From Hymenobacter sp. J193 (GTDB lineage Bacteria; Bacteroidota; Bacteroidia; Cytophagales; Hymenobacteraceae), in contig NZ_JAJONE010000001.1 of the NCBI RefSeq assembly GCF_024700075.1, forward strand, positions 3,619,001 through 3,683,000: a stretch of 64,000 nt of DNA, read 5' to 3'. Positions 5,240-21,060 of the stretch are shown piece after piece. The notes beneath the pieces are model-generated. The model was not told the DNA's origin and did not search any database. It worked only from the letters and a program-made list of their open reading frames with translations. The position numbers and the translations under genes are program-made. Numbering within the stretch: position 1 is the stretch's first letter; every line of letters begins with the position of its first letter.

Positions 5240-5335
5240 TAAGTGGTGAATTTGTGAAGTTGTGAGATTGATTTCTGTCCGCACCACTTGCGCAAACTGC
5301 GCCTGCGGAACATCAACTCACCATTTCACCACTTA
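5240..5335. repeat. imperfect inverted repeat of the GGTGAAATGGTGAG family
   Basis: TAAGTGGTGAA at 5240 is matched by TTCACCACTTA ending at 5335, and the inner GTTGTGAG/CTCACC-like blocks pair partly. The right arm overlaps the leuB stop codon (TAA at 5333-5335). Related sequence occurs at 14527-14590 and near 21375. Confidence 0.6.
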
Positions 5336-6457
5336 GATAATCGTGCTCATGCCGAGCCGGATGTTATTGCGGTGCAGCTCGCAGTCAGCAATGTCCAGCA
5401 CGGCGTAGGCAATGAAGCTGCCCACCTGCTCGGTGGTGTGTACCACGACCGGGCTCAGCTCGGGCGTCACTACGCCTTCGTTGAGGGCGTGCTGTACGGC
5501 GTCGCGCACGCAGTCGGCTTCTTCTATCAGACCGAAGTGGTCCAGCAGCATGGCCGCCGAGAGAATGGTGGCAATGGGGTTGGCAATGCCCTTGCCCTTG
5601 GCCTGCGGGTAGGAGCCGTGGATGGGCTCAAACAGCGCCGAACCGTCGCCGATGGAGGCGGAGGGCAGCAAGCCCAGGGAGCCAGCAATAACCGAAGCCT
5701 CGTCGGAAATGATGTCGCCAAACATGTTTTCCGTCAGCATCACGTCAAACTGACGCGGATTCAGGATAATCTGCATGGCGGCGTTGTCCACAAACAGATA
5801 ATCCAGGGCCACGCTGGGGTACTGAGGTGCAATGCTCTGCACCGTTTCGCGCCAGAGGCGGGAAGTTTCCAGCACATTGGCCTTATCAACCAGCGTGAGC
5901 TTGTGGCGGCGCGTTTCGGCGGCCTTGAAGGCCAGGTGCGCAATGCGCAGGATTTCGTCGCGGTGGTAGGTGCAGTGGTCGTAGGCGCTGGCGCGGTCCT
6001 CGCTGCGGCCTTTCTCCCCGAAGTAAATACCACCGGTCAGCTCCCGGAAAATCAGGATATCGGTGCCCTGAATGCGCTCGACTTTCAGCGGGGAGTGTTC
6101 TAGCAGCTGGTCGTAGGCCGTGATGGGGCGAATGTTGGCGTACAGTCCCAGCGACTTGCGCAGCCCCAGCAGCCCCTGCTCAGGACGCACTTTGGCAGTG
6201 GGGTCGTTGTCGTACTTCGGGTCGCCGATGGCGCCTAGCAGCACGGCGTCAGCTTGGCGGCAGGCTTCCAGCGTAACGTCCGGCAGTGGCGTACCCACGG
6301 CGTCGATGGCGCAGGCGCCCATCAGCTGGTAGTCGAAGTGAAACTCGTGGCCGAACCGGTCACCCACTGCCTTAAGCACGCGCACCGCCTCGCTACATAC
6401 TTCCGGCCCGATACCGTCGCCGGGCAACACTACTATTCGTTTGCTTACGCTATCCAT
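5333..6457 (-). CDS. leuB: 3-isopropylmalate dehydrogenase
   Basis: Cytosolic NAD-dependent enzyme that oxidises and decarboxylates 3-isopropylmalate to 2-oxoisocaproate in leucine synthesis. The 374-residue length fits the family. Visible signatures are [10 protein letters not shown] near the N-terminus, [11 protein letters not shown] around 72-82, the [21 protein letters not shown] substrate region, an [12 protein letters not shown] loop, and the metal/NAD site [17 protein letters not shown] followed by [18 protein letters not shown]. Its ATG overlaps the end of leuD by 13 bases, so the two are translationally coupled. It is the last gene of leuACDB. Confidence 0.97.
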
Positions 6458-7044
6458 GACCGTTGCTGTTCGTAGGCCGTAATGGCCGCCTCTTGGCTTA
6501 TGAGAAAATCAATGTCGTCGTACCCGTTTAGCAGGCACTCTTTTTTGTAGGCATCCAGTTCAAAGGGAATGGCTTCCGTCCGTCCGGGCACCGTGAGGGT
6601 TTGCGCGCCCAGGTCCACCGTCAGCGGTAGCTGCGGGTCGGCGGCCACGGCGGCAAACAGCGCCTGCAGCACCTCATCCGACACCTGGAGAGGCAGCAGG
6701 CCGGTGTTCAGGGCATTGCCCCGGAAAATATCGGCGAAGTAGCTGCTGATGACCACCCGAAAACCGGCGTCGTACAGGGCCCAGGCGGCGTGCTCCCGGC
6801 TGGAGCCGCACCCGAAGTTTTTGCCGGCCAGCAGAATCTGGTGGCCCTGGTAGCGCGGGTCGTTGAGCACAAAATCGGCTTTCGGCTGGCCACCGGCGGC
6901 GTAGCGCCAGTCGGCAAATAGATTGGCCCCGAAGCCTTCCCGGGTCGTCGCCTTCAGGAAGCGGGCCGGGATAATCTGGTCGGTGTCCACGTTTTCGATG
7001 GGCAGCGGTACCACGCCGGATTGCAGGGTCTGAAACTTTTCCAT
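6445..7044 (-). CDS. leuD: 3-isopropylmalate dehydratase small subunit
   Basis: Small (swivel) subunit of isopropylmalate isomerase, which with LeuC converts 2- to 3-isopropylmalate. At 199 residues it has the normal bacterial length. It shows the [13 protein letters not shown] start motif, the [21 protein letters not shown] region split around residues 62-80, and [17 protein letters not shown] with the conserved Arg and His. The gene starts 15 bases after leuC ends and overlaps leuB by 13 bases, the usual leuCDB coupling. Confidence 0.97.
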
Positions 7045-7059
7045 GGGGTGGGAGTTGGG

Positions 7060-8454
7060 TTAGTTCAAGTACTGCGTGATGTCAACCAGGCGACCTTCCA
7101 CGGCGGTGATAGCCGCCACCAGCGGGGAGGCCAGCAGCGTGCGGGCGCCGGGCCCCTGGCGGCCTTCGAAATTGCGGTTGGAGGTCGATACGCAGTAGGC
7201 GCCGGCCGGAATCTTGTCGTCGTTCATGGCCAGGCAGGCGCTACAGCCTGGCTCGCGCAGCTCAAAGCCCGCGTCGGCCAGCACTTGGTCAATGCCTTCG
7301 GCAATGGCCTGCAGCTCTACCTGCTTGGAGCCGGGCACGATGATGGCCTCCACGTGGGCGGCTTTGCGCTTGCCCTTCACGTAAGCCGCCACCGTGCGCA
7401 GATCCTCTATGCGGGAGTTGGTGCAGCTGCCAATGAACACGTAGTTGATTTCCTTGCCCAGCAGCGACTCGCCCGCCTCAAAGCCCATGTACCGCAGCGA
7501 CTTGTCGAAGCTGGCGGCCTCGCCCGAATCGGCCAGCATGGGAATGCTGGCGCTGAGCGGAATGCCCATGCCGGGGTTGGTGCCGTAGGTTATCATCGGC
7601 TGAATGGCCGAGGCGTCGAACTGCAGTTCGGCGTCGAACTGGGCATCTTCGTCGGAATAGAGCGTCTGCCAGTAGGCCACGGCCCGGTCCCAGTTCTCGC
7701 CCTGGGGCGCAAAGCGGCGGCCTTCGAGGTAGCTGAACGTAGTAGCATCAGGCGCAATGAGGCCACCGCGGGCGCCCATTTCTATGCTCATGTTGCACAC
7801 CGTCATGCGGCCTTCCATGCTCAGGGCGCGGATGGCGCTGCCAGCATATTCCACAAAGTAGCCCGTGGCCCCGCCGGTACCCAACTGGGAAATAACGTGC
7901 AGAATCAAATCCTTGGCCGACACGCCGGGGCGCAGCTCCCCGTCCAGGGTGATGCGCATGCGCTTGGGCTTGTCGAGCAGCAGGCACTGGGAAGCCATTA
8001 CCTGCGTTACCTGGCTGGTGCCGATGCCGAAGGCAATGGTGCCGAACGCGCCGTGCGTGGAGGTGTGCGAGTCGCCGCACACCATCGTCAGGCCCGGCTG
8101 GGTGATGCCCAGCTCCGGCCCAATGACGTGTACAATGCCCTGGTACTGGTGGCCGAGGCCGTAAAGCTCCACGCCAAACTTGGCGCAGTTCTCGGTGAGC
8201 TTGTCCACCTGGGAGCGGGACAGTGGGTCCTGAATGGGCTGGTCCTGGTGGCGCGTGGGTACGTTGTGGTCGGCGGTGGCTACGATCTGGCCGGGGCGGC
8301 GCAGCGTGAGGCCGCGGGCCGTCAGCTCGTCAAACGCCTGCGGGCTGGTGACTTCATGGATCAGGTGCCGGTCGATATAGAACACGGTGAGGCCACCGGC
8401 TACTTCGCGCACCACGTGGGCGTCCCAGATTTTATCAAATAAGGTCTTAGCCAT
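7060..8454 (-). CDS. leuC: 3-isopropylmalate dehydratase large subunit
   Basis: Large, iron-sulfur subunit of isopropylmalate isomerase (aconitase superfamily). The 464-residue protein begins with [12 protein letters not shown] and has the [12 protein letters not shown] motif, [14 protein letters not shown], the cluster Cys region [11 protein letters not shown] near 345 and the Cys pair in GCSACLAMN near 405. It forms the heterodimer with LeuD encoded immediately after it. A 105-base gap separates it from leuA upstream. Confidence 0.97.
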
Positions 8455-8559
8455 GAGAAGGGTGGGGTGACGGGAACTTGAGGTTCCCGTAGTTCGGGCT
8501 CAGCATAAAATAGAAAACCGCCGTGCCCGGGTGTGTTGGCATGACGGTCCAGCGTTGGG

Positions 8560-9726
8560 TTAGCCGACGGTAACGAGGTTTTCCTGCTCTACCATCACGT
8601 GCAAATCCTCGTCCACGACTTCCTTCTGGCGGTCGGCGAGGGCCACAAATGAGGCGTAGGCTTTGTTGAGGGCCGTGCGGTCGAAGTCGTAGCCGATCTT
8701 TTGGAGGCGGTAGGCGAGGGCCGCGCGGCCAGAGCGGGCCGTGAGCACAATGGCCGAGTCGGGCATGCCCACCTCCAGCGGGTCGATGATTTCGTAGGTT
8801 TGGCGGTGCTTGATTACACCATCCTGGTGAATGCCGCTGGAGTGCGAAAACGCGTTGGCGCCCACAATGGCCTTGTTGGGCTGCACGGGCATCGACATGA
8901 GGTGCGAAACCATAGCCGAAGTTTCGGCCAGCAGCTTGGTGTTGATGCCGGTTTCGAAGTTGAGGTAGGGGTGTTGGCGGAGCACCATCACGGCTTCTTC
9001 CAACGCCGTGTTGCCGGCCCGCTCGCCCACCCCGTTGATGGTGCACTCCACCTGTTGGGCGCCGTTGAGCACGCCCGCAATGGAGTTGGCCGTGGCCATG
9101 CCCAAGTCGTTGTGGCAGTGCGTGGACAGGCGCACGTGCTCGATGCCGCGCACGTTGTCGACCAGGAATTTAATCTTGGCGCCGTACTCGCTCGGCAGGC
9201 AGTAGCCGGTGGTATCAGGAATGTTGAGCACCGTGGCACCAGCCCGGATAGCGGCTTCGCACACGCGCACCAGAAATTCGTTTTCAGTGCGGCCGGCGTC
9301 TTCGGCGTAAAACTCCACGTCTTCCACAAAGCTTTTGGCCAGCTTCACGGCCGCTACCGCCCGCTCAATAATCTTGTCGGGCGTGGTGCAGAGCTTGAAT
9401 TTGATATGCGAGTCGGAAGTACCGATGCCGGTATGAATGCGCGGATATTTGGCCGATTTCAGGGCTTCCGCCGCTGTAATGATGTCGTGTTCCACGGCGC
9501 GGGAGAGGCCGCAGACGGTGGCGTAGCGCGTTTGGGCCGCAATAGCCGCCACGGCGTCAAAGTCGCCGGGGCTGGAAACCGGAAAGCCGGCCTCAATCAC
9601 ATCCACGCCGAGTAGCTCCAGCTGCCGGGCAATGAGCAGTTTCTCGTCCCGGTTGAGCTTGCAGCCCGGCACTTGCTCCCCGTCGCGCAGGGTGGTATCG
9701 AAGATGTGGATTTTCTGAGTAGCCAT
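8560..9726 (-). CDS. leuA: 2-isopropylmalate synthase, short form without regulatory domain
   Basis: Condenses acetyl-CoA with 2-oxoisovalerate, the first committed step to leucine. The TIM-barrel HMGL-like domain has [13 protein letters not shown] at 9-21, the [15 protein letters not shown] metal-binding segment near 200 and the [14 protein letters not shown] motif. The protein is only 388 residues, against roughly 500 or more for enzymes with the C-terminal LeuA dimerisation/allosteric domain, which is not visible. The start at 9726 ([10 protein letters not shown]) is preferred over the ATG eight codons upstream. Loss of leucine feedback at this enzyme would shift control to transcription. 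A related acyl-CoA condensing specificity is less likely given the leuCDB neighbours. Confidence 0.95.
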
Positions 9727-10142
9727 GGCACAGGGGTCTTTCAGCCGCAAAGCACCAAGTACGCTCCCAGGCCAGGGCTTCGGAAACCCTTCATCGGCAA
9801 GCCTACTATTTCTAAAAGTTGAGGTTTAATTTATAAAGAGCTGAAATACAGGAGACAGAAAATAATACAGCTACAATACCTAACCCAGTGTAAATTGGCC
9901 GGAACTTTCTGCTAGCTCATAAGGAAGGGATGATAGTCACAATACCATGTTGGATAATTCCAAGGTAATAATGACTTAGCTGCCTATATTTGGTAATTGT
10001 TTTAAGCAGAACGGCTGTTGTAACGAGGTAGATTTGGATACTTTGTTTTCCAATATACGAAACTGTGTAGGAGCCATGATTACAGTCGAGCATATCAAAG
10101 TATACCGATACTATAGAAGGAGATATTGACATTTGGGCCAGG
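9727..10142. other. AT-richer gap upstream of leuA
   Basis: This 416-base gap between leuA and a small ORF is clearly poorer in GC than its flanks. It contains an isolated TATATTTG (9985-9992) matching the plus-strand Bacteroidota -7 consensus, without a convincing -33 element. No leader peptide or terminator hairpin like the one before ilvE was found upstream of leuA. Otherwise nothing is recognisable. Confidence 0.4.
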
Positions 10143-10406
10143 TTGAACAATCCAAAATGGCCTATGACAGATAGCGTCTGGTATGAGATACAAGATTTGC
10201 TGTATAACGTGTATCTGATTAAGTATACCAATGTTTCCGAACCATTTAGACAGCGGCTTTTAAAACAAATAAAGGAAGCCTGTGAGAACGAGGAAGTAGA
10301 AGAGGAGTTACTGAAGCTCTCCGCAGAAATTAGCGGGCAACTCACCGCCACAATCAAAAAGTCGTGGCGGGAGCAGCTTAAGACACTCTGGAGAGGAGTA
10401 GTTTAG
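10143..10406 (+). CDS. small hypothetical protein
   Basis: An ORF of up to 87 codons, opening with TTG at 10143 or ATG at 10164. The product is acidic and helical, with aromatic residues near the N-terminus (DSVWYEIQDLLYNVYLIKY) and an EEVEEELLKLSAEISG heptad-like stretch. It has no membrane segment or known motif. It lies on the strand opposite to the surrounding ilv/leu genes, in AT-richer sequence, which suggests a later insertion. An overlapping minus-strand ORF (9917-10357) has a less protein-like composition. Function unknown. Confidence 0.4.
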   Translation: MNNPKWPMTDSVWYEIQDLLYNVYLIKYTNVSEPFRQRLLKQIKEACENEEVEEELLKLSAEISGQLTATIKKSWREQLKTLWRGVV

Positions 10407-10535
10407 CTTTTGATAAGAGGAGTCCTGATACCACAACACGAACAGTTGTGCGAAACTCTGTCTGACCAGCAGTAAGCACAGGTCAAAGGTGGGAAGATCC
10501 TTTGGCTACCACCTCAGGATAGTATTTCGCTTACC

Positions 10536-11822
10536 TCACACCAGCAAACTCAGGAAATCCTGCTTGCCGTTCAGGTACTCGTAGCCGAAGCCCTCGGCAG
10601 CCATGCGCTGCTGAATGCCCGCCACGTCGTGCGGGTTCTGCACTTCCAGGCCGATAAAGACGGGCCCTTTTTCCTTGTTATTCTTTTTGATGTACTGAAA
10701 CTGGATGATGTCGTCGCCCTCCTGAAGCACGTGGTTCACAAAGCGGCGCAAAGCCCCAGGCTTTTGGTTGAAGGTGACCAGAAAGTAGTGCTTGCGGCCC
10801 TGGTGGCGCATGGCCCGCTCCTTGATTTCCTCCATCCGGGTGATGTCGTTGTTGGAGCCGCTGAGCACGCACACCACCGTTTTGCCCTGGATCTGGTCGG
10901 CGTACTGGTGCAGGGCCGAGACGCTGAGCGTGCCCGCCGGCTCCAGCACAATGCCTTCCTCGTTGTACATCTTCAGCAGATCCTCGCATACCTGCCCCTC
11001 GGGCACCAGGGCCACCTCATCCAGCAGCTCCTGGCACAGCTGAAACGTCAGCTCGCCGGGGCATTTCACGGCTGCCCCGTCCACGAAGCTCTCAATAGAT
11101 TCCAGGGCCTGGCGCTGCCCGTTGGCAATGGCCCGCTGCATCGAAGGCGCCCCCAGCGGCTGCACCCCAATCAGGCGGGTGCGCGGGCTCAGCTGCCGAA
11201 ACACACTGCTCACCCCCGAAGCCAGCCCCCCGCCGCCGATGGGCATAAACAGAAAATCAATTTGAGCGGGCGCGTCGCGCAGGATTTCCAGGCCCACAGT
11301 AGCCTGGCCTTCCACAATGGCCAGGTCATCGAACGGGTGCACGAAGGTGCTGCCGCGCTGGTCGCAGAAGTTTTTGGCGGCCTGGTACGTATCGTCGAAG
11401 GTGGCGCCTACCAGCACCACGTCCACCTGATCTTTGCCAAACAGACGCACTTTACTTACCTTCTGGGCTGGCGTTTGGGCGGGCATGAAGATGTAGCCGC
11501 GAATCCCAAGCAGCTGGCAGGCATAGGCCACTCCCTGTGCATGGTTGCCGGCCGAAGCGCACACTACATCCCGCGTCACCTGTTCCCGGCTAAGCCCGGC
11601 TATCTTGTTGTAGGCACCCCGGATTTTGTAGGAGCGTACCACCTGCAGGTCTTCGCGTTTGAGGTACACGTTAGCTCCATAGGCATCGGAAAGGCCCAGA
11701 TTGTGCTGCAGCAGGGTTTTGTAGATGACGCCATCCAGGGTGCGGGCGGCGCGCTCCACGTTGGCCAGCTGCACTACCGGAGTAGCGGTAAGCGTGTCTT
11801 CTTGCATAGGTTCAGTGGTCAT
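10536..11822 (-). CDS. ilvA: threonine dehydratase (threonine ammonia-lyase), biosynthetic
   Basis: PLP enzyme turning threonine into 2-oxobutanoate, the entry to isoleucine. The fold-type II catalytic domain shows the PLP lysine in RSYKIRGAYNK, SAGNHAQGVAYAC and the phosphate-binding GGGGLASG. Residues from about 340 on form a single ACT-like regulatory domain (HYFLVTFNQKPGALRRFVN), as in the short IlvA form of about 410-430 residues, so isoleucine feedback is plausible. The start is MTTEPMQED at 11822, or the Met five codons later. It follows a methyltransferase gene on the same strand with a 68-base gap. Confidence 0.95.
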   Translation of the reverse strand: MTTEPMQEDTLTATPVVQLANVERAARTLDGVIYKTLLQHNLGLSDAYGANVYLKREDLQVVRSYKIRGAYNKIAGLSREQVTRDVVCASAGNHAQGVAYACQLLGIRGYIFMPAQTPAQKVSKVRLFGKDQVDVVLVGATFDDTYQAAKNFCDQRGSTFVHPFDDLAIVEGQATVGLEILRDAPAQIDFLFMPIGGGGLASGVSSVFRQLSPRTRLIGVQPLGAPSMQRAIANGQRQALESIESFVDGAAVKCPGELTFQLCQELLDEVALVPEGQVCEDLLKMYNEEGIVLEPAGTLSVSALHQYADQIQGKTVVCVLSGSNNDITRMEEIKERAMRHQGRKHYFLVTFNQKPGALRRFVNHVLQEGDDIIQFQYIKKNNKEKGPVFIGLEVQNPHDVAGIQQRMAAEGFGYEYLNGKQDFLSLLV

Positions 11823-11890
11823 TAAAGGGGGTATTCGTTGCTAGCTATTTGTTTTGGTTGTTGAGTGACTCTGACACTGTCAACGAACAA

Positions 11891-12649
11891 CTAGCTCCCG
11901 GGCTTCTCTGCCACGATGCGCAGGCGCTTGTAATCGGCCCGCCACTGCCCATCCCGGAACAGAACGGGGCGCAGCTCGGCTTCGGTGGCAGCTAAAATGT
12001 CTGCCTGGGTTTCCGGTTCAACGCCCCGGAAGAAATTGTCCCCAAACTGCTCAATCCAGTCCCGGAGTCCGGTATCGGGGTCGGCAAGGGGCGTTTCCCG
12101 GTCGTAGTGCTGGGCCAGGCGCACTTGGAACCCTTGTTGTTCGAGCAGCGCGGTGTACTTGGCCACTGAGGGAAAGTACCACCAGTCGGCGCTGGCGTGT
12201 GGGTAGCCGTGCTGGTGCAGCTGGCGGAGCAGGGTTTCCACAATATGCCCCACATTGCCCTTCCCGCCAAGCTCCGCTACGAAGCGCCCACCCGGCTGCA
12301 GATGTTGATATACCTGCCGCACCACGGCCTCTGCCTGCGGAACCCAGTGCAGCGCCGCATTCGAGAATACGGCATCGAAGCGTTCTGATAGCTCAAACGT
12401 GGCCGCATCGGCTAACCGGAAATCAAGCGCCGGAAACTGCTCCCGGGCCTTGGTCAGCATGTCGGCCGAGGCGTCCAGGCCCACTACGTTAGCGCCCCGG
12501 CTGGCTATTTCCTGCGCCAGCTCCCCAGCCCCGCAGCCTAGGTCCAGCACCCACTCGCCCGGCTGCGGAGAAAGTACTTCCACTAAGCCTGCGCCGTACT
12601 GAGAGACAAAAGCATGCTTTTGGGTATAGGAGTCGGCATTCCAGTGCAT
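11891..12649 (-). CDS. class I SAM-dependent methyltransferase (Tam-like)
   Basis: A 252-residue methyltransfer enzyme with the SAM-binding motif I VLDLGCGAGELA near 33-44, the acidic motif II VVGLDASADML, and FDAVFSNAALHWV, a stretch typical of trans-aconitate 2-methyltransferase and its relatives. The substrate cannot be deduced. The gene sits between ilvC and ilvA on the same strand, so it may be co-transcribed, but a strong hairpin separates it from ilvC. It has no obvious role in branched-chain amino acid synthesis and is probably a passenger. Confidence 0.85.
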   Translation of the reverse strand: MHWNADSYTQKHAFVSQYGAGLVEVLSPQPGEWVLDLGCGAGELAQEIASRGANVVGLDASADMLTKAREQFPALDFRLADAATFELSERFDAVFSNAALHWVPQAEAVVRQVYQHLQPGGRFVAELGGKGNVGHIVETLLRQLHQHGYPHASADWWYFPSVAKYTALLEQQGFQVRLAQHYDRETPLADPDTGLRDWIEQFGDNFFRGVEPETQADILAATEAELRPVLFRDGQWRADYKRLRIVAEKPGS

Positions 12650-12665
12650 AGGTTCAGCGAAAAGC

Positions 12666-12693
12666 GGAAGGCTGGCGTTGCGGCCAGCCTTCC
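12666..12693 (-). terminator. hairpin after ilvC (possible terminator)
   Basis: Perfect 11-base arms GGAAGGCTGGC (12666-12676) and GCCAGCCTTCC (12683-12693) with a six-base loop, 17 bases past the ilvC stop. On the minus strand it is followed by GCTTTTCG, only a weak U tract; on the plus strand the T-rich tail is better. It may end or dampen the ilv transcript before the methyltransferase. Confidence 0.55.
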
Positions 12694-12709
12694 TTTATTT
12701 ATTTTCTGA

Positions 12710-13777
12710 TTAGCTCAATTCTTCCACCTTTTCGGTGGCCTTGGAGCGCAACTCGCGCACAGTGGCGCCGGTCTGCCACAGCTCTGAGTCGCGCACTTCC
12801 TTTAGTTCGGCTTCCAGCTCCTGGCGGTAGCCGGGCGTAGAGCCGCGCTGGATGGTGCGGGCGGCTTCGGCGCCGGAGGCTACGCTGTCGTACAGCTCGT
12901 TGAGCACGGGCAGGGTAGCCTCGCGGAACTTGCCTTTCCAGTCGAGGGCGCCGCGCTGGGCCGTCACAGAGCAGTTGCTGAACATCCAGTCCATGCCGTT
13001 TTCGCCCACCAGCGGCACCAGGCTCTGGGTGAGTTCTTCCACGGTTTCGTTGAAAGCCTCGGAAGGGGAGTGGCCACGCTGGCGCAGCACTTGGTACTGG
13101 GCCTCAATGATGCCGGCCAGGGCACCCATCAGCACGCCCCGCTCGCCCGTAAGGTCAGAGTACACTTCGCGCTTGAAGTCAGTTTCGAACAGGTAGCCCG
13201 AGCCCACTCCGATACCCAAAGCAATGGCCTTTTCGTAGGCGTGGCCAGTGGCATCCTGGTACACGGCAAAGGAAGAGTTCAGGCCGCCGCCAGCCACAAA
13301 CAGGCGGCGCAGGCTGGTGCCGCTGCCCTTAGGCGCTACCAGCACCACGTCCACATCGGCGGGCGGGATGATGTTGGTCTGGTCGTTGAAGGTGATGCCG
13401 AAGCCGTGGGAGAAGTACAGCGTTTTGCCGGCCGTGAGCCGGGCTTTCAGCGTGGGCCACACCGCAATCTGGCCGGCGTCGGAGAGCAAGTTGGCAATGA
13501 TGGTACCGCGCTCCGCGGCTTCCTCGATATCGAACAGGGTTTCGCCCTCCACCCAGCCGTCGGCTTCAGCCTTGTTCCAGGAGGCCGAGTCGCGGCGCTG
13601 CCCGATGATGACGTTGAAGCCGTTGTCGCGCAGGTTCAGGGCCTGGCCGGGGCCCTGCACGCCGTAGCCAATCACGGCAATGGTTTCATCCTTGAGAATC
13701 GTGCGGGCTTTTTCCAGAGGAAATTCGTCGCGGGTTACTACGTGCTCTTCTACGCCGCCGAAGTTGATGGTTGCCAT
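12710..13777 (-). CDS. ilvC: ketol-acid reductoisomerase
   Basis: NADPH- and Mg-dependent enzyme converting acetolactate or acetohydroxybutyrate to the dihydroxy acids. The N-terminal Rossmann domain shows IGYGVQGPGQALNLRDNG and the cofactor-specificity loop IGQRRDSASWNKA. HGFGITF contains the conserved catalytic His region, and the helical C-terminal half carries the acidic metal-ligand segments (DLTGERGVLMGAL, EAQYQVL). At 355 residues it is near the short class I form with a small C-terminal extension. It lies downstream of ilvN in the ilv run. Confidence 0.96.
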   Translation of the reverse strand: MATINFGGVEEHVVTRDEFPLEKARTILKDETIAVIGYGVQGPGQALNLRDNGFNVIIGQRRDSASWNKAEADGWVEGETLFDIEEAAERGTIIANLLSDAGQIAVWPTLKARLTAGKTLYFSHGFGITFNDQTNIIPPADVDVVLVAPKGSGTSLRRLFVAGGGLNSSFAVYQDATGHAYEKAIALGIGVGSGYLFETDFKREVYSDLTGERGVLMGALAGIIEAQYQVLRQRGHSPSEAFNETVEELTQSLVPLVGENGMDWMFSNCSVTAQRGALDWKGKFREATLPVLNELYDSVASGAEAARTIQRGSTPGYRQELEAELKEVRDSELWQTGATVRELRSKATEKVEELS

Positions 13778-13786
13778 GTTGGTTGG

Positions 13787-13898
13787 AGGTTGAGTGGTTT
13801 ATGGTTATTGGTTTCTGGTTTTTTGTTATTCGTTTTTAGTTGTTTGTCTTTGAGAATGCGCTAGGGCCAAAAACCAAAAACAACCAACCAAAAACCTG
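13787..13898. repeat. low-complexity inverted repeat between ilvN and ilvC
   Basis: G/T-rich blocks such as GGTTATTGGTTTCTGG on the left are mirrored by A/C-rich blocks CCAAAAACCAAAAACAACC on the right, so the gap can fold into a long imperfect hairpin. It resembles other imperfect repeats in the gaps of this gene run. Confidence 0.5.
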
Positions 13899-13905
13899 AC
13901 GCAAG

Positions 13906-14502
13906 TCACATCGAAAACACCTTGTCGCGGCTGTTGAGGTAGTCGTTTTCGCTTACTTCGTGGCCGGGCTCAATGCGCTCAAACTCGCGGAGCTTGTGGT
14001 GGAAGCCCTTGCTGTCTTTGATGATGGCAATGCGGGCCGAGCGCACAAACTCGATAAGGCCGTAGGGCTGCAGCACTGCCAGCAGCTTGTCCGTTTCTTC
14101 GCGGTGGCCGGTGGTTTCAAACACCGTATAGTCCTTGCGAATCACCACCGCCCGGGCGCCGTGTTCCCGCAGCAGCCGCTCCACCAGAGCCCGCTCGGCA
14201 ATAACGTCGGTGGGCACTTTGTAGAGGGCCATTTCCTGCCAGATGACGTCCTCATTGGGGTTAAAGTAGACCTTGAGCACTTCCACCTGCTTTTCAATCT
14301 GGCGGGCAATCTTGCGCACCACTTCCTCCGTCTCCACCACCACAATGTTGAAGCGGTGAATACCCTCGATTTCCGAAGGGGAGGTGTTGAGGCTTTCGAT
14401 ATTGATTTTGCGCCGCGAGAAGATGATAGCAATGCGGTTCAGCAGCCCCACCTGGTTCTCGGTATACACCGTGATGTTGTACTCGCACCGGTCTATGGTC
14501 AT
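13906..14502 (-). CDS. ilvN: acetolactate synthase small (regulatory) subunit
   Basis: Regulatory subunit of acetohydroxyacid synthase that binds valine and stimulates the large subunit. The N-terminal ACT domain (about 6-80) has the typical TVYTENQVGLLNRIAIIFSR and RRKINIESLN signature with the Gly/Asn effector positions. The second half (about 90-180) matches the ALS_ss_C domain (LYKVPTDVIAERALVERLL). The 198-residue length is that of the longer IlvH-type subunits. It is encoded just after the large subunit, with a hairpin-forming gap of about 106 bases. Confidence 0.95.
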   Translation of the reverse strand: MTIDRCEYNITVYTENQVGLLNRIAIIFSRRKINIESLNTSPSEIEGIHRFNIVVVETEEVVRKIARQIEKQVEVLKVYFNPNEDVIWQEMALYKVPTDVIAERALVERLLREHGARAVVIRKDYTVFETTGHREETDKLLAVLQPYGLIEFVRSARIAIIKDSKGFHHKLREFERIEPGHEVSENDYLNSRDKVFSM

Positions 14503-14526
14503 AGCGAAGTTGTGAAATGGTGAGAT

Positions 14527-14590
14527 GGTGAAATGGTGAGTTTTGTAAAGAGCAGGATAAGTTGTCAGTTGGAAAACTCACCATTTCACC
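14527..14590. repeat. perfect inverted repeat between ilvB and ilvN
   Basis: Arms GGTGAAATGGTGAGTTTT (14527-14544) and AAAACTCACCATTTCACC (14573-14590) match over 18 bases around a 28-base loop, and partly paired outer sequence extends the stem. The same word family occurs at 5240-5335 and near 21375. On the transcript it would fold between the ilvB and ilvN messages. Confidence 0.75.
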
Positions 14591-14608
14591 ACCTCACAAT
14601 TCTACCGT

Positions 14609-16367
14609 TTATCGCAGCCTTATTTCGCCCACGCCGCAGCCTTGCGGTACCATGGGGAAGATGTTATTTTCGCGGGTCACCATCACCTCCAGCAGAAAGG
14701 AGCCGGGATGAGCCAGCATGTCGCGCAAGGCGGGCTGGAGCTCAGCGCGGGCATCCACACGGCGGCCGGCTATGCTGTAGCCCTGGGCCACGGTCACGTA
14801 GTCGGGGCTGGCAATGTCTACGAAGGAGTAGCGTCGCTCGTGAAACAGCTCCTGCCACTGGCGCACCATGCCCAGAAACTGGTTGTTGAGCAGCAGGATC
14901 TTCACGTTCACGCCAGTTTGCATAATGGTGCCCAGCTCCTGAATCGTCATCTGAATGCCCCCGTCGCCGATAACGGCTACTACCTGCCGTTCCGGTGCCC
15001 CGAACTTGGCCCCGATGGCGGCGGGCAGGGCAAAGCCCATGGTACCCAGGCCCCCGCTGGTGATGTTGCTGCGGGTGTGATTGAAGCGGGCGTAGCGACA
15101 GGCCACCATCTGGTGCTGGCCCACGTCCGTCACGATGATGGCCTCGCCCTGGGTCAGCTCATTCAGCTGCTGAATCACCTCCCCCATAGTCAGCTCGTTG
15201 GAAGTCGGAAACAGCTCGTCCTGAATGACGGCGGCAATTTCCTCGGCATCGTGCTCCGTGAAGCGCTGCCGCCACTCGGGGTAGGTACGCGGCTCTACCA
15301 GTTGCGTGAGCAGGGGCAGGGTTTCCTTGCAGTCACCCCACACCGGCACGGTAGCCTTCAGGTTCTTGTCGATTTCCGTGGGGTCGATGTCGAGGTGAAT
15401 GACCTGGGCCTGGCGGGCGTACTTGTCGAGGCGGCCCGTTACCCGGTCGTCGAAGCGCATGCCGATGGCAATGAGCACGTCGCACTCGTTGGTCAGCACG
15501 TTGGGGCCGTAGTTGCCGTGCATGCCCAGCATGCCCACGTTCAGCGGGTGGCCGGTGGGCAGCACCCCCGCACCTAGGATGGTCCAGGCCGCCGGGATGC
15601 CGCTTTTCTCAATGAACTCCCGGAACTCCTGCTCGGCCTGACCCAGCAACACACCCTGCCCCCAGAGCACGAGGGGCCGCTTGGCCTGGTTGATGAGCTC
15701 GGCGGCCTGCGCTACGTACTCGGGCCGTACAATGGGCTTGGGCCGGTAGCTGCGAATATGAATACAGGGCTGGTAGGGCGCGAAGTCGGCCTTCTGAATC
15801 TGGGCGTTTTTGGTGATGTCAATCAGTACCGGGCCGGGGCGGCCGCTGCGGGCAATGTAGAAGGCCCTGGCCAGCACCTCGGGAATTTCACTGGCGTCCG
15901 TTACCTGGTGGTTCCAGCTTGGTAATGGGCGTGGTGATGTTGATGATGTCGGTTTCCTGGAAGGCATCGGTACCCAGCAAGTGCGCAAACACCTGCCCCG
16001 TAATGCACACCAGCGGGGTGCTGTCGATGAGGGCATCGGCCAGGCCCGTGACGAGGTTGGTAGCACCAGGGCCGCTGGTGGCGAAGACCACGCCCACTTT
16101 GCCCGATGACCGTGCGTAGCCCTGGGCGGCGTGAATGCCGCCCTGCTCGTGGCGCACCAGCACGTGGTTCAGCTGCTCCTTGAAGTCGTAGAGGGCATCA
16201 TAGATCGGGATGATGGCCCCGCCCGGATACCCGAAAATGGTGTCCACGCCCTCGGCCAGCAGGGCGTGCAGCGTAGCCTCAGCGCCGGAAAGCGTGCGGG
16301 TAGCTGGCGCGGCCACGGCCGTTTCAGGCGAGGTCGGCGCGGGCTGGGGTTGCTCTTTCGTGTACAT
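14609..16367 (-). pseudogene. ilvB: acetolactate synthase large subunit, interrupted by a +1 frameshift
   Basis: ThDP-dependent catalytic subunit of acetohydroxyacid synthase. The N-terminal part from 16367 has [14 protein letters not shown], the ThDP-activating Glu in [17 protein letters not shown] and the [18 protein letters not shown] segment, reading correctly to Lys150 (ITTPITK). One extra base near 15917 then throws the frame off and a stop follows nine codons later. The rest, from [19 protein letters not shown] at 15916 down to 14609, is intact and contains the ThDP/Mg motif (VIGDGGIQM) and FLGMVRQWQELF. Skipping one base restores a 585-residue protein of normal length. No slippery sequence is evident. 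It overlaps ilvD by 44 bases. Loss of this step should cause branched-chain amino acid auxotrophy unless a second copy exists, so a sequencing error is quite possible. Confidence 0.93.
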
Positions 16368-18048
16368 GGTCTTCCTCGTAATCGGTGATACAGCCGCGGC
16401 TTGCGTCGCTGACCGTGCGGATATACTTCAGCAATACGCCCTGCTGCACACTCGGCCGGGGCCGCTGCCACTGCTGGCGACGCAGCTCCAGCAGGGCCGC
16501 ATCTACCTGCACATCTATCGTGTTGGTGCCGGCATCCAGCACAATCCAGTCGCCGTCTTCCACCAGGGCAATGGTGCCGCCGTCGTAGGCCTCGGGGCAG
16601 ACGTGGCCGATGACGAAGCCGTGCGTACCGCCCGAAAAGCGCCCGTCGGTAATCAGGGCCACTTTGTCACCCAGGCCCGCGCCGATGATGGCCGAGGTGG
16701 GCTTGAGCATTTCCGGCATGCCCGGTCCACCCTTGGGTCCTACGTAGCGAATCACGACCACGTGGCCGGGCTGAATCTTGCCCTGGGTAATGCCTTCGTT
16801 CAGCTCTTCTTCGGAGTTGAACACCACGGCCGGACCTTCAAACCGCAGCCCTTCCTTGCCCGTGATTTTGGCCACCGCGCCCTTGGTGGCCAAGTTGCCG
16901 TACAGAATCTGAATGTGGCCGTCAGCTTTGATGGGGTTATTCAAGGGGCGCAACAAGTCCTGCTCGGCACCCAGGGGCTGCACGTCGGCCAGGTTTTCGG
17001 CTAGCGTCCGGCCCGTCACCGTGAGCAGGTCGCCGTGGAGCAGGCCCGCGTTGAGCATGGTCTTCATCACGGCCGGCACCCCGCCCAGCGCCGACAAATC
17101 CTCCATCAGGTACTTGCCGCTGGGCTTTAGATCAGCCAGCACCGGCACGCGGTTGCTCACGGCCTGGAAGTCCTCCATCGTCAGGTGCACGCCGGCGGCG
17201 TGGGCAATGGCAATGAGGTGAAGCACGGCGTTGGTGGAGCCGCCGAGCACGGTAGTCATCACCAGGGCGTTTTCGAAGGCCTCGCGCACCAGAATGTCGC
17301 GGGGCTTGAGGTCCAGCTCCAGCAGGCGGCGCAGGTACGCGCCGGCGTCGTGGCACTCCTGCTGCTTTTCGGCGCTTACGGCCGGGGAGGACGAGGAAAA
17401 CGGAACACTCATGCCCAGCGTTTCAATAGCGGCCGCCATCGTATTCGCCGTGTACATGCCTCCACACGCTCCCGGACCCGGGCAGGCGTTGTGGATAATG
17501 CCTTTGTAATCCTCGTCCGATATCTGCCCCTGCAGCTTTTTGCCGTAGGCCTCAAAGCACGAAACAATGTTGAGCTGCTGCCCTTTGAAGGTGCCGCCCT
17601 TGATGGTGCCGCCATATACCATCAGGGAAGGCCGGTTGAGGCGGGCCATGGCAATGAGGGCACCGGGCATGTTCTTGTCGCAGCCCATCACGCAGGCCAG
17701 CGCGTCGTAGTTGTGGGCCCCGGCCATGGCCTCAATGGAATCGGCAATGATTTCGCGCGAAACCAGGGAGTAGCGCATGCCGGCCGTGCCGTTGGTAATG
17801 CCGTCGGATACGCCGATGGTGTTGAAGCGCAGTCCTACCAGGCCCTGCTGCTGCACGCCGGTCTTCACCTGGTCGGCCAGGCCGTTGAGGTGCATGTTGC
17901 AGGTGTTGCCTTCGAAGCCCGTGGAGCAGATGCCCACGAACGGCTTGCGCAAATCCTCATCCGACAGCCCCGAGCCGATGAGCATGGCCTGGGAGGCCGG
18001 CAGGCTGTCGTCTTGGGTGTAGATGCGGCTGTATTTATTCAGAGCCAT
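16324..18048 (-). CDS. ilvD: dihydroxy-acid dehydratase
   Basis: Iron-sulfur enzyme that dehydrates dihydroxy-isovalerate and -methylvalerate to the 2-oxo acids. The cluster cysteines are visible in [27 protein letters not shown] and [37 protein letters not shown] and [21 protein letters not shown] are family signatures. The 574 residues match the usual 550-620. The C-terminal 20 residues, rich in charged residues, overlap the start of ilvB in another frame. It follows ilvE by 75 bases. Confidence 0.97.
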
Positions 18049-18123: not shown

Positions 18124-19026
18124 CTAGGTTCTGACTTCCAGGTGTTCAGCTTTAACTGACTGCCCGGTTACCAGGGCCTGGTAGTGGCTGGCCAGCATAC
18201 CACCGATGGTTTGCTGAAAAGGGGTGGTAAACGTCACGTCATCCACCGAAGCCACGCCGATAACCTCGGCGGCGGTACCCGTCATGAAGGCGGCAGAAGC
18301 GGTGCGCAGCTCCTCGGGCTTGAAGAATTGCTCGTGTACCGTGATGCCGGCCTCGCGGGCCAGGTCGATGATGGTGTTGCGGGTGATGCCACGCAGAATG
18401 CTGCCCTGAGGAGCGGTGTACAGCTCACCTTCCCGCTCGAAAAAGAAGTTGGCTCCCGGACCTTCCGCCACGTAGCCGTTCATATCCAGCAGCAGGGCTT
18501 CGTCGTAGCCCCGGCCCTTGGCCTCGGTGCTGGCAATGATGGAGTTGACGTAGTGGCCGGCGACTTTCGCTTCAATGGGCACGGCCTTGGGGTTGGGCCG
18601 CTCGTAAGGCGAGATGGTGAGGCGCAGGCTCTGGTCGCCGAGGTACTTGCCCCATTCCCACACGGCAATCAGCAGGTTGCCGGAGGAGGCGGCTTTCAGG
18701 CTCATGTTGGGCGTGGCGGCGTACACCAGCGGCCGGAGGTAGGCATCGGTGAGGTGGTTGCGCTCCAGCACTTCGTAGCTGATGCGCGTCAGCTCTTCCA
18801 CCGAGTAAGCCAGCGGCAGCCCAATGGATTTACAGGAATAGTGCAGCCGCTCGTAGTGCTCTTCGGGCTTGAAGATGCGCGTGCCGGCCGGCGTCTGGTA
18901 GGCCCGGATGCCCTCGAACACGGCGTAGCCATAGTGCAAAGACTGGGCGTAGACGCCGCACGTAGCCTGCTCGGCCGGTACGAACTCGCCATCCAGGAAA
19001 GCAACTGTATCAGAGGTGAAGTACAT
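18124..19026 (-). CDS. ilvE: branched-chain amino acid aminotransferase
   Basis: Fold-type IV PLP transaminase doing the last step to leucine, isoleucine and valine. At 300 residues it is the IlvE group I size. Motifs include the start YFTSDTVAFLDGEFVPAEQA region, FEGIRAYQTPAGTRIFKPEEH, the PLP lysine in IEAKVAGHYVNSI, and EALLLDMNGYVAEGPGANFFFE. It is the first structural gene of the ilv run. The ATG lies 33 bases after a leader terminator, so expression likely depends on read-through of that attenuator. Confidence 0.96.
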   Translation of the reverse strand: MYFTSDTVAFLDGEFVPAEQATCGVYAQSLHYGYAVFEGIRAYQTPAGTRIFKPEEHYERLHYSCKSIGLPLAYSVEELTRISYEVLERNHLTDAYLRPLVYAATPNMSLKAASSGNLLIAVWEWGKYLGDQSLRLTISPYERPNPKAVPIEAKVAGHYVNSIIASTEAKGRGYDEALLLDMNGYVAEGPGANFFFEREGELYTAPQGSILRGITRNTIIDLAREAGITVHEQFFKPEELRTASAAFMTGTAAEVIGVASVDDVTFTTPFQQTIGGMLASHYQALVTGQSVKAEHLEVRT

Positions 19027-19059: not shown

Positions 19060-19094
19060 AAAAAAGCCTTTCAGAGCACCGGGCTGAGAAAGGC
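19060..19094 (-). terminator. attenuator terminator upstream of ilvE
   Basis: On the minus strand GCCTTTC (19094-19088) pairs with GAAAGGC (19072-19066), an inner AGC/GCT extends the stem, and six T follow (19065-19060). It sits between a leader peptide gene and ilvE. Its 5' arm is also part of an alternative pairing with the end of the leader gene, the hallmark of an attenuator. Confidence 0.82.
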
Positions 19095-19129
19095 TGCTGG
19101 CGTGGCGGATAACGCGGTTCCTTTCAGCC
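19082..19129 (-). promoter_or_regulatory. predicted antiterminator of the ilv leader
   Basis: The end of the leader gene, GGCTGAAAGG (19129-19120, containing the stop TGA), can pair with CCTTTCTCAGCC (19093-19082): GGCTGA with TCAGCC and AAGG with CCTT, leaving a two-base bulge. The second strand overlaps the 5' arm of the terminator at 19088-19094, so the two folds exclude each other. A ribosome stalled earlier on Leu/Ile/Val codons would leave GGCTGAAAGG free and favour read-through; one reaching the stop would mask it and allow termination. Confidence 0.72.
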
Positions 19130-19180
19130 TGGCAGCGGCAGCGTAATGACTGGTCCGACGGAATTGAGAATCAAGGTCAT
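19124..19180 (-). CDS. ilv operon leader peptide
   Basis: An 18-codon ORF from ATG at 19180 to TGA at 19124 encoding MTLILNSVGPVITLPLPG. Ten of 18 residues are Leu, Ile, Val or Thr, the amino acids made by or feeding the downstream ilv pathway. It ends 30 bases before the terminator hairpin and its stop codon lies inside the antiterminator strand. No Shine-Dalgarno is seen, usual for this phylum. The regulatory reading rests on codon content plus the two alternative hairpins; function is inferred. Confidence 0.75.
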   Translation of the reverse strand: MTLILNSVGPVITLPLPG

Positions 19181-19515
19181 GTGAGGCGAAAGGGAAAAAC
19201 AACGGTAGAGGACGGGCGGGGCGCTTGGTTTGATTCTATTCGCTCGACGGAGTAATATGCGGTGGGGCCGGGCTTGGGCGAAGTGGCCGGCTGCATACAC
19301 GGGCGCCAGCCCGCCGCTACCAACGAAATAAATTGTGCCGACCAGGAAGTGGAAAAGTGCTCCGACATGTCATCTTTGCGTTGTTAGGATGATAGCAAGT
19401 ACATCAGCTACAGCACGTAATTAAAACTTTCTCTTCAGCTGCCTACTATTTCTACTATTTGCGCTTTGTTTGGTAAAACATTGTAAAACAGTACGTTGAT
19501 TTTTTTGTAAATACA
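19181..19515. other. divergent promoter region between the ilv leader and the helical-repeat gene
   Basis: This 335-base gap must hold the promoter of the ilv leader (minus) and of the gene starting at 19516 (plus). CAACGGTA at 19200-19207 is the complement of TACCGTTG, one mismatch from the -7 consensus, and lies 20 bases before the leader ATG, but no -33 partner is clear. On the plus side TTTG-rich sequence at 19455-19475 is suggestive only. A 63-codon minus ORF (19177-19368) looks like chance. Confidence 0.4.
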
Positions 19516-21060
19516 ATGCCCAACGAAAACACGGACCCGGTTTTTCAGCTCATCAAGTCCCTGACCCGCACCGAGAAGCGTCATTTCCGTTTGTTTGCCA
19601 ACCGGCAGGGCTCGGCGGACGGCCTTAAGTTCCTGCAATTGTTCGATGCGCTGGATGGGCAGGAGCGCTACGATGAGGAGCGCGTGCTGGCCCAAGTGCC
19701 AGCCATCAAAAAAGTGCAAGTAGCCAACCTCAAGGCCAATCTGTACCGGCAGCTGCTGGCCAGCCTGCGCATGTACCACGCGGGCCACAACACCGATATC
19801 CAGCTGCGCGAGCAGCTCGACTACGCCCGCGTGCTCTACAACCGCGGCCTGTATATCCAGAGCCTGCGGATGCTGGAAAAGGTAAAGCAAGCCGCCCAGC
19901 AGGCCGAAATGCAGCATATCACGCTCATGGCTCTCGACTTCGAGAAGCTGATTGAGGGCCAGTACATCACCCGGAGCCTGCGCGGCCGGGCGCGGGAACT
20001 GTCGGACGAGGCTACGACCACCGTGGCGCACGTGGCGCGGGAGCATGCCCTGTCCAACCTGGCGCTGCGCATGTACGGGCGCTACCTCAAAATCGGGCAC
20101 ACCCGCAACCAGCAGGACTACGACAAGATTACCGATTACTTCCGCCAGGACCTGCCGCTGCTGGACCCCCGGCAGGCCACGTTCTTCGAGCAGCTGTACT
20201 ACTACCAGGCCCATGTGTGGTACTACACCATCACGCAAAACTTCCGGCTCTGCTTCCGCTATGCCCAGAAGTGGGTGGATTTGTTTGAGGCCAACCCCCT
20301 GATGCGCGAGCAGCAGGCCATGCTCTACATCAAGGGCCTGCACAACCTGCTAGTGACGGCCTACAACATGCTTTACTACAGCAAGTTTGAGGAGGTGCTA
20401 ACCCTGCTGGAGGCCTACGCCGCCGACCCGGAGCGCCGCACCAGCCCCAACATCGACATGCTGCTGTTCCTGTACATTTACACCAACCGCATCAACGGCT
20501 ACTTCATGCGCGGGCAGTTCACGGAGGGGCTGAAGATCGTGCCGGAGCTGCTCGAAAACCTCGACCACTTCCGCCTGCAACTCGACTCGCACCGGCGCCT
20601 GGTGTTCTACTACAAAATTGCCAGCCTGTACTTCGGCAGCGGCCAGCCCGATAAGGCCATTGAGTACCTCAACAAGGTTATCTATTTCAAGGAAGCCAGC
20701 CTGCGCGAAGACATTCAGTGCTTTGCCCGAATCCTCAACCTAATTGCCCACTACGAAGCCGGCCGCGACGAATCCCTGGACTACCAGATCCGGTCGGTGT
20801 ACCGCTTCCTGGGCAAGATGAACGACCAGCAGCAGATGCAGGAGGCCATCTTCAAGTTCCTGCGCAGCCTTGGCGACGTGGCTCCGTCTCAGCTCAAGGA
20901 GTCCTTCCTCAAACTCAAAAACAAGCTTATTGTCATTGCCGAAAACCCTTACGAGCGGCGCCCCTTCCTCTACCTCGACATCATTTCCTGGCTGGAAAGC
21001 AAGATTGAGAACGTGCCCGTGCAGGATATCATCCGCCGTAAGTTCCCCAAGCTCAAGTAG
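19516..21060 (+). CDS. conserved all-helical repeat protein (TPR-like)
   Basis: A 514-residue soluble protein without signal peptide. It opens with NTDPVFQLIKSLTRTEKRHFRLFANRQ and continues as alternating amphipathic helices rich in Tyr, Leu and Arg, resembling degenerate TPR units (for example the block around YFGSGQPDKAIEYLNKVIYFKEASLRED, written here as a family-type match). The C-terminus has a long helix ending in FPKLK. I recognise it as a type of conserved hypothetical found in Cytophagales, with no known enzyme motif; scaffold or protein-interaction roles are possible. It is transcribed away from the ilv leader. Confidence 0.75.
   Translation: MPNENTDPVFQLIKSLTRTEKRHFRLFANRQGSADGLKFLQLFDALDGQERYDEERVLAQVPAIKKVQVANLKANLYRQLLASLRMYHAGHNTDIQLREQLDYARVLYNRGLYIQSLRMLEKVKQAAQQAEMQHITLMALDFEKLIEGQYITRSLRGRARELSDEATTTVAHVAREHALSNLALRMYGRYLKIGHTRNQQDYDKITDYFRQDLPLLDPRQATFFEQLYYYQAHVWYYTITQNFRLCFRYAQKWVDLFEANPLMREQQAMLYIKGLHNLLVTAYNMLYYSKFEEVLTLLEAYAADPERRTSPNIDMLLFLYIYTNRINGYFMRGQFTEGLKIVPELLENLDHFRLQLDSHRRLVFYYKIASLYFGSGQPDKAIEYLNKVIYFKEASLREDIQCFARILNLIAHYEAGRDESLDYQIRSVYRFLGKMNDQQQMQEAIFKFLRSLGDVAPSQLKESFLKLKNKLIVIAENPYERRPFLYLDIISWLESKIENVPVQDIIRRKFPKLK

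Follow-up and report, generated by a model that had tools for sequence, protein, structure and literature searches.

Leader-peptide attenuators of the ilv, leu and thr operons of E. coli and Salmonella (Leu_leader and Thr_leader in Rfam) are well known in principle. In Bacteroidota, Shine-Dalgarno sequences are rarely used. Amino-acid attenuators were reportedly predicted in some Bacteroidetes/Chlorobi by Vitreschak et al. in 2004.

In a 2010 article, leader-peptide systems were described as shown only in Proteobacteria and Actinobacteria, and the word Bacteroid is absent from its accessible text (PMC2965389). For Flavobacterium psychrophilum, the main text of PMC9723704 describes strong hints of attenuation by leader peptides in front of amino-acid biosynthesis operons, together with conserved 5' elements without Rfam hits. 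Leader-like sORFs are mentioned in B. thetaiotaomicron in the accessible text of PMC7366714. The Corynebacterium ilvBNC operon has an attenuator/uORF as outlined in PMC10272879 and PMC11857589, one of which assumes three hairpins, and the accessible text of PMC3641672 describes tandem attenuators in the mgtCBR operon of Salmonella, which encodes a virulence protein and a Mg2+ transporter. Among titles and the first parts of abstracts, with subscription literature largely outside this scope, no report of an ilv attenuator in Bacteroidota was found.

The locus described here lies in the window, which is the whole 64,000-nucleotide stretch of Hymenobacter sp. J193 that was analyzed. Its ilv-leu operon is very probably controlled by a ribosome-mediated transcription attenuator located before ilvE. 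The features of the locus are as follows.

5333..18048, minus strand: ilvD, ilvB (two frames), ilvN, ilvC, a methyltransferase-like gene, ilvA, leuA, leuC, leuD and leuB (ORFs)
18124..19026, minus strand: ilvE, first structural gene of the operon (ORF call and orthologues)
19060..19095, minus strand: intrinsic terminator, hairpin AGCCTTTCTCAGCCCGGTGCTCTGAAAGGC (19095-19066) followed by six T (19065-19060)
19079..19093, minus strand: antiterminator 3' strand CCTTTCTCAGCCCGG, which is the terminator 5' arm plus loop
19120..19133, minus strand: antiterminator 5' strand GCC.GGCTGAAAGG, the end of the leader gene including its stop codon
19124..19180, minus strand: leader peptide gene MTLILNSVGPVITLPLPG, ATG at 19180, TGA ending at 19124, 18 codons
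19142..19150, minus strand: putative core control codons GTC ATT ACG (Val-Ile-Thr), marked by conservation, codon bias and closeness to the switch point of the model
19177..19368, minus strand: conserved upstream ORF of 63 aa, its TGA overlapping the leader ATG as ATGA (19180-19177)
19395..19430, minus strand: promoter-like motif AAAGTTTT-N21-TACTTGC, upstream of the 63-aa ORF
19516-21060, plus strand: divergent neighbour gene, upstream of the leader region and pointing away

The gene names in the cluster are by-eye readings of the translations. The order read was ilvE-ilvD-ilvB-ilvN-ilvC-(methyltransferase-like)-ilvA-leuA-leuC-leuD-leuB, all codirectional on the minus strand, and ilvE was preceded by the promoter-like motif, the 63-aa ORF, the 18-codon leader and the terminator, in that order. 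Because the gene at 19516-21060 diverges, the terminator at 19095-19060 can act solely on the ilvE transcript in the minus direction. As a separate observation, ilvB (14609-16367, minus strand) was split into overlapping frames at 16367-15888 and 16066-14609, owing either to a genuine frameshift or to an error in sequencing.

The initial annotation had described an 18-codon leader with ten Leu/Ile/Val/Thr codons and no Shine-Dalgarno, followed by a terminator hairpin with six T whose 5' arm pairs alternatively with the leader end and its stop codon. On the minus-strand sequence, the leader, its coordinates and its peptide were correct; the ten codons were counted (8 of 17 being L/I/V), and the terminator was found with a hairpin energy of -14.1 kcal/mol. 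A duplex of -18.6 kcal/mol, mutually exclusive with the terminator, is possible between the leader end GGCTGAAAGG (19129-19120) and CCTTTC..CAGCC (19093-19082), and no GGAGG-like site was present before the leader ATG in the window. Such a composition is not rare by itself: among the window's 197 ATG ORFs encoding 14-21 aa, 9 have an L/I/V content of at least 8/17. Small ATG ORFs ending 4-70 nt before terminator-like sites, of which the window has 123, were then compared. Only one of 34, the ilvE leader, combined at least 40% L/I/V with a duplex of -16 or lower. The folding energy of the whole stretch was ordinary (z 0.34) and uninformative.

The case for an attenuator is strong because of the comparison across relatives. 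An IlvE search (E <= 1e-60) of 101 genomes of the genus gave matches in 45, including the window's genome, and leader, antiterminator and terminator were complete in 36 of these 45 ilvE loci. The 36 leaders were 14-19 codons long, and L/I/V accounted for 4 to 12 of the 13 to 18 codons that follow Met. Their core was Val-Ile or Ile-Ile in 35 cases and Val-Ser-Met in L012, and Val-Ile-Ile predominated among the 36 relatives that make up the genus alignment A1. The leader stop (TGA, TAG or TAA) lay inside or adjoining the antiterminator strand in all 36 loci. A T-run after a terminator-like hairpin and a potential antiterminator were likewise present in each, although the hairpin of L012 was imperfect. 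A lack of conservation of the leader or the stems in relatives had been named beforehand as evidence against attenuation; leader, stop position, terminator and antiterminator were all conserved in the genus.

Nine of the 45 ilvE loci were without the full unit. In L007 and L008 the terminator was kept while the leader and antiterminator strand were missing, and these loci are expected to be natural mutants locked in termination. L035 had the terminator alone, without a leader, and L016 had neither hairpin nor attenuator. In the other five (L011, L013, L014, L015 and L028), the interval from the upstream ORF to ilvE held a different hairpin, strong, GC-rich and potentially able to pair in alternative ways, which is perhaps another regulatory element.

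A covariance model (R1) was built from the 36 complete loci and searched over the same 101 genomes. Full-length matches (E <= 6e-11) were obtained in 57 genomes, comprising the 36 loci, 20 further loci with the leader upstream of ilvD (L078-L080 and L103-L119) and the degenerate L120. In 15 of the 17 loci L103-L119, leuB was directly upstream, and the ilvD start was about 0.8 kb more distant in L111, L113 and L117 than in the others. The leader of L080 would have 30 codons from an in-frame ATG and 18 from a TTG start. The R1 match G041 (3e-9) was the terminator-only locus L035. The weak matches L121, L122, L093 and L094 were inspected, and L121 (E 1e-6) and L122 (E 3e-5) were rejected as units, being plain terminators of the GCCTTTC type.

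A complete unit was therefore present in 56 of the 101 genomes. IlvD was found (E <= 1e-150) in 66 genomes, and 55 of these had a complete unit, compared to 1 of the 35 without ilvD. The remaining 11 genomes with ilvD included eight leaderless ilvE loci and three genomes (G035, G058 and G083) without a strong R1 match. The sole unit among the ilvD-less genomes was that of G009, whose ilvE match holds two internal stops; in genomes without ilvD, the leader was degenerate in L120 and gone in L035.

Codon usage was compared between 56 Hymenobacter leaders (955 codons) and nine operon genes of the window, with ilvB left out. L, I and V made up 50% of leader codons compared to 23% in the operon genes. 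The choice of codon was also biased: GTC accounted for 72% of 146 Val codons in the leaders and 9% of 253 in the operon genes, and ATT for 92% of 146 and 46% of 205 Ile codons, respectively.

The effect of ribosome position was calculated for 66 sequences, with the ribosome edge set 12 nt past the start of the A site. With the ribosome stalled between 16 and 7 codons ahead of the stop, the mean P(terminator) was 0.39-0.51 (0.48 at 7 codons); it rose to 0.74 at 6 and 0.92 at 5 codons, and reached 0.95 at the stop. When the model was repeated with a 15-nt edge, this step came one codon earlier. The conserved core, which in leaders of 18 codons lies 8 to 6 codons ahead of the stop, coincides with the edge of the predicted switch. 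In the window, a stall 7 codons short of the stop gave a probability of 0.54 for the terminator and 0.28 for the antiterminator, and from 5 codons on the values were 0.98 and 0.00. The terminator of the window was favoured at equilibrium at every ribosome position (P at least 0.52, antiterminator at most 0.28), and the mean antiterminator probability over the 66 sequences never exceeded 0.44. Since the antiterminator is never dominant at equilibrium in the window, it must win by forming first, following the order of synthesis.

Base pairing was analyzed at two depths. Pairing of the terminator in the genus alignment A1 was 98.1%, and its covariation score was 0.109, compared to at most 0.091 for slid versions. 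The antiterminator scored 0.089, below partners slid by 1-3 columns (0.100-0.123), and this result counts against the attenuator reading at genus-only depth. Alignment A3 contained 40 diverse sequences, including other families, and covered the terminator and five antiterminator pairs; 94.8% of its cells were paired and 8 pairs were changed on both sides. Its covariation score was 0.260, compared to 0.161 for shuffled (0/500) and at most 0.117 for slid versions, with the structure drawn from the consensus of A3 itself, which favours the real over the slid versions. Thus, the compensatory changes that the initial annotation had proposed to look for were seen in both stems with several families, but the antiterminator did not rise above slid partners in the genus-only alignment. 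The attenuation reading of that annotation gains support from conservation in the genus and from compensatory changes beyond it.

The duplex between leader end and terminator arm was calculated for 66 sequences of 67 units, excluding L120, which is without a leader. A leader and its own arm gave a mean of -20.9 kcal/mol, and z was below -2 in 56 of the 66 against mononucleotide shuffles of the leader end. Out-group leaders paired at -22.3 with their own arms, compared to -14.7 and -12.3 with the arms of the two Hymenobacter groups and -15.3 with other out-group arms, while 5 of the 10 out-group leaders paired at least equally well with some other out-group arm. Within the two Hymenobacter groups, own pairs were slightly better than cross pairs (-19.9 vs -18.7 and -22.0 vs -20.3). 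Where the leader ends, a local CCN..GGG hairpin that corresponds to the 1:2 pause or protector hairpin was weak (mean z -0.73; z below -2 in 5 of 66).

The window locus has three features of this regulatory class, namely an L/I/V-rich leader ORF, an intrinsic terminator before the first structural gene and a mutually exclusive antiterminator. In silico, across the 66 sequences, a ribosome at the stop favours the terminator and one at the control codons permits the antiterminator. We infer the start site, leader translation, stalling and amino acid response as follows. Transcription would begin upstream, in this clade before the 63-aa ORF, and a ribosome would translate the leader. If charged tRNA is plentiful, the ribosome would proceed to the leader stop and cover GGCTGAAAGG, so that the terminator forms and transcription ends before ilvE. 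When charged Val- and Ile-tRNA (and Leu- and Thr-tRNA) are scarce, the ribosome would stall at or before the Val-Ile-Thr core and leave the leader tail free. The tail could then pair with the terminator 5' arm once this is transcribed, and with the antiterminator formed, RNA polymerase would continue into ilvE.

A different sensor was also considered, in which the 5' region senses tRNA, a metabolite or a protein directly, as a T-box, a riboswitch or the target of an RNA-binding protein, and the ORF is incidental. T-boxes and riboswitches also use terminator/antiterminator pairs. No Rfam family matched in the window at the gathering threshold. In 16 relative loci searched up to E 0.5, a single tRNA gene was detected; the other hits, to Phe_leader, Thr_leader and STnc230, all fell below gathering, the best leader hits being Phe_leader at 41.9 and Thr_leader at 38.2 of 55 bits. 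No T-box match was found in the window at gathering or among the 16 loci up to E 0.5. Conservation was centred on the codons and on the stop adjoining the antiterminator strand. With these points against it, direct sensing is extremely unlikely.

The analysis added to the initial annotation an upstream ORF overlapping the leader start and a wide spread of the arrangement. The upstream ORF was seen in 13 loci with a length of 62-68 aa. An alignment of 12 loci, excluding L008 in which the frame continues past the lost leader, gave a median dN/dS of 0.42, and all 65 usable pairs of 66 were below 1. The ATGA overlap occurred in 6/6 loci having both upstream ORF and leader, despite varying ORF length; the six loci are not independent because they are related. 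Searching proteins with the L011 copy of this ORF returned only four domainless proteins of 62-64 aa, three of them named Hymenobacter hypothetical proteins. Besides the window, the ORF was present in 4 of 38 relatives, and one of these four was weak, with a stop. The upstream ORF is presumably translated and would hand ribosomes to the leader. Reinitiation from leader genes to downstream genes has been argued for several phyla including Bacteroidetes, at distances of 11-14 bp and not at overlaps according to the accessible text of PMC4833913.

Upstream of this ORF, TACTTGC was conserved in 12 of the 13 loci (TACTTAG in L016) and AGTTT in 13 of 13, and the AGTTT..TACTTGC motif is a putative promoter. 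In the window, a search for the canonical TAnnTTTG promoter found none up to 250 nt from the leader.

The overlap and the purifying selection on the upstream ORF would also suit a role in ilvE translation or RNA stability and not in termination, the ribosome passing from the 63-aa ORF to the leader. The ORF is moreover kept in genomes without the attenuator (L011, L013-L016 and L028), including all five with the substitute hairpin. However, all 36 complete loci have kept a terminator-like hairpin, its T-run and a potential antiterminator, and the attenuator was kept without the upstream ORF in 28 of the 34 complete ilvE loci scanned. An action of the overlapping ORFs mainly at translation is thus very improbable, and transcription attenuation is preferred.

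The same plan was found before ilv genes in other Cytophagales and in Tenacibaculum, Chryseobacterium and Pedobacter. R1 was searched over 148 genomes of the order, and ten out-of-genus loci were inspected (L081-L084, L086-L089, L093 and L094). Nine of these precede ilvE or ilvB (L086 and L088 by eye), and L094 had no ilv gene in the inspected stretch. A second model (R2), searched with strict filters over 395 genomes of the class, gave matches (E <= 1e-6) in 20 genomes, four of them within the window's order. An ilv gene was present in the stretch of 18 of the 20 inspected R2 loci and was not found in those of L128 and L137; three of the loci were second units of the same genomes. In L137, at about 1485-1550, a Phe/Tyr/Asn-rich leader MMNFYFNNNFNYATPPGGD was seen by eye before a terminator, perhaps a phe/tyr attenuator. 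Loci were also drawn blind to the unit by IlvE (E <= 1e-80), which matched in 15 of 149 genomes and gave 13 loci outside the genus. A plausible unit was present in seven (L147, L148, L153 and L155-L158) and absent in six (L149-L152, L154 and L159), and the genome of L151 has a unit before ilvB instead (L142).

Two units in series were found in ten genomes (L082, L093, L127, L128, L129, L131, L132/L155, L134, L139 and L140), the first unit of L093 having a weak antiterminator (-6.3). A detector was further applied to named genomes, in the 78 loci with at least 300 nt upstream. This sample is biased because it holds the best 80 loci among the matches listed, and the IlvE alignment was headed by a tandem-bearing lineage. 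Among these best 80, at least one unit preceded ilvE in 57 of the 78 loci, at least two in 20 and three in one (L198). The first units of L237 and L204 were doubtful (duplexes of -2.0 and -3.4), and without them the tandem count was 18 of 78 among the matches listed. Tandem loci upstream of ilvE included L164, L169, L181, L186, L188, L191, L192, L193, L197, L198 (three units), L205, L207, L213, L216, L224 and others. Among the matches listed, two units were found in 8 of 9 Tenacibaculum loci, in Roseivirga, and in 1 of 3 Flavobacterium and 1 of 4 Pedobacter loci. Among the same matches, five Chitinophaga isolate genomes (L208, L222, L225, L226 and L233) had no unit, and three metagenome genomes labelled Chitinophaga pinensis had one each.

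As controls on the same named loci, the detector found units in 3 loci on the reverse complement (42 terminators vs 118) and in none after shuffling. It also found none in the DNA 800-1600 nt upstream and one downstream of ilvE (L194). The reverse complement is the fairest control, since the distant upstream and downstream stretches hold few terminators (6 and 2). The downstream case is itself leader-like, with a leader MILTAAIIITVNIIVIVIKT and a terminator within 800 nt after ilvE, and an attenuator may therefore also sit inside the operon.

These counts bear on another alternative, namely that the hairpin is an ordinary terminator that constitutively lowers ilv expression and the leader is a chance ORF. 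L007 and L008, which retain the terminator without a leader, would fit it, as would the 9 of 197 short L/I/V-rich ORFs and the GCCTTTC-type terminators elsewhere (L121 and L122). However, the leader, the place of its stop and the antiterminator are all conserved, and outside the genus this conservation comes with compensatory changes; the codon choice of the leader is biased, and the unit occurred in 57 of 78 loci among the matches listed compared to 0 to 3 in the controls. A chance ORF before a constitutive terminator is accordingly very unlikely, and ribosome-mediated attenuation remains the preferred reading.

Other amino-acid operons of the source genome alone were also inspected. Before trpE (L246 1276-1353), a Trp-rich leader MTFSSTQQAWWWPFGNSGRDSLCVR with three consecutive Trp codons is followed 27 nt on by a GC-rich terminator (L246 1381-1407), probably a trp attenuator. 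Before hisG (L245, reverse complement 952-1140), a His-rich ORF of 62 codons ends in QHHHHHGHHSSF with a hairpin and T-run downstream, probably a his attenuator with a long leader. These two leaders add to the case for attenuation before ilvE. No leader/terminator unit was seen before homoserine dehydrogenase in two loci inspected.

Taken jointly, the results may point to widespread, uncatalogued ilv attenuators in Bacteroidota that are often doubled, giving two amino-acid checks, and to a leader in the window's clade that is loaded without a Shine-Dalgarno through the ATGA from the 63-aa ORF. We hold this combined reading tentatively, as nearly evenly balanced. If it is true, ribosome and RNA polymerase are kinetically coupled in Bacteroidota. 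The units would provide natural, testable reporters of transcription-translation coupling for a phylum with rare Shine-Dalgarno use. An attenuator also explains the conserved region before ilv operons, and the work would supply a covariance model for elements below every Rfam family threshold.

Like the ilv, leu and thr attenuators of E. coli and Salmonella, the unit has a short leader ORF with codons for the pathway products, an intrinsic terminator and an antiterminator that would be formed upon stalling. It differs from those attenuators in that the last part of the leader gene, stop codon included, serves as the antiterminator strand, in having a 1:2 hairpin that is weak or missing, and in showing neither a Shine-Dalgarno nor an Rfam match at gathering; in the window's clade, an overlapping ORF also precedes the leader. 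The F. psychrophilum elements belong to the same phylum and also suggest leader-peptide attenuation, but they lie at pheA, hisG and others, and ilv is absent from the main text (PMC9723704). Corynebacterium ilvBNC likewise has a uORF/attenuator upstream of an ilv operon and, compared by description alone, differs in being actinobacterial (PMC10272879, PMC11857589). In mgtCBR, two short ORFs are anticipated to steer stem-loops, according to the accessible text of PMC3641672, which resembles the tandem units of Tenacibaculum and others; unlike mgtCBR, the operon here is for amino acid biosynthesis, and the window has one attenuator only. Leader-peptide attenuation is a known kind of regulation that was already suggested for a flavobacterium; the doubled units in front of an amino-acid operon and the ORF that overlaps the leader start are variants worth testing.
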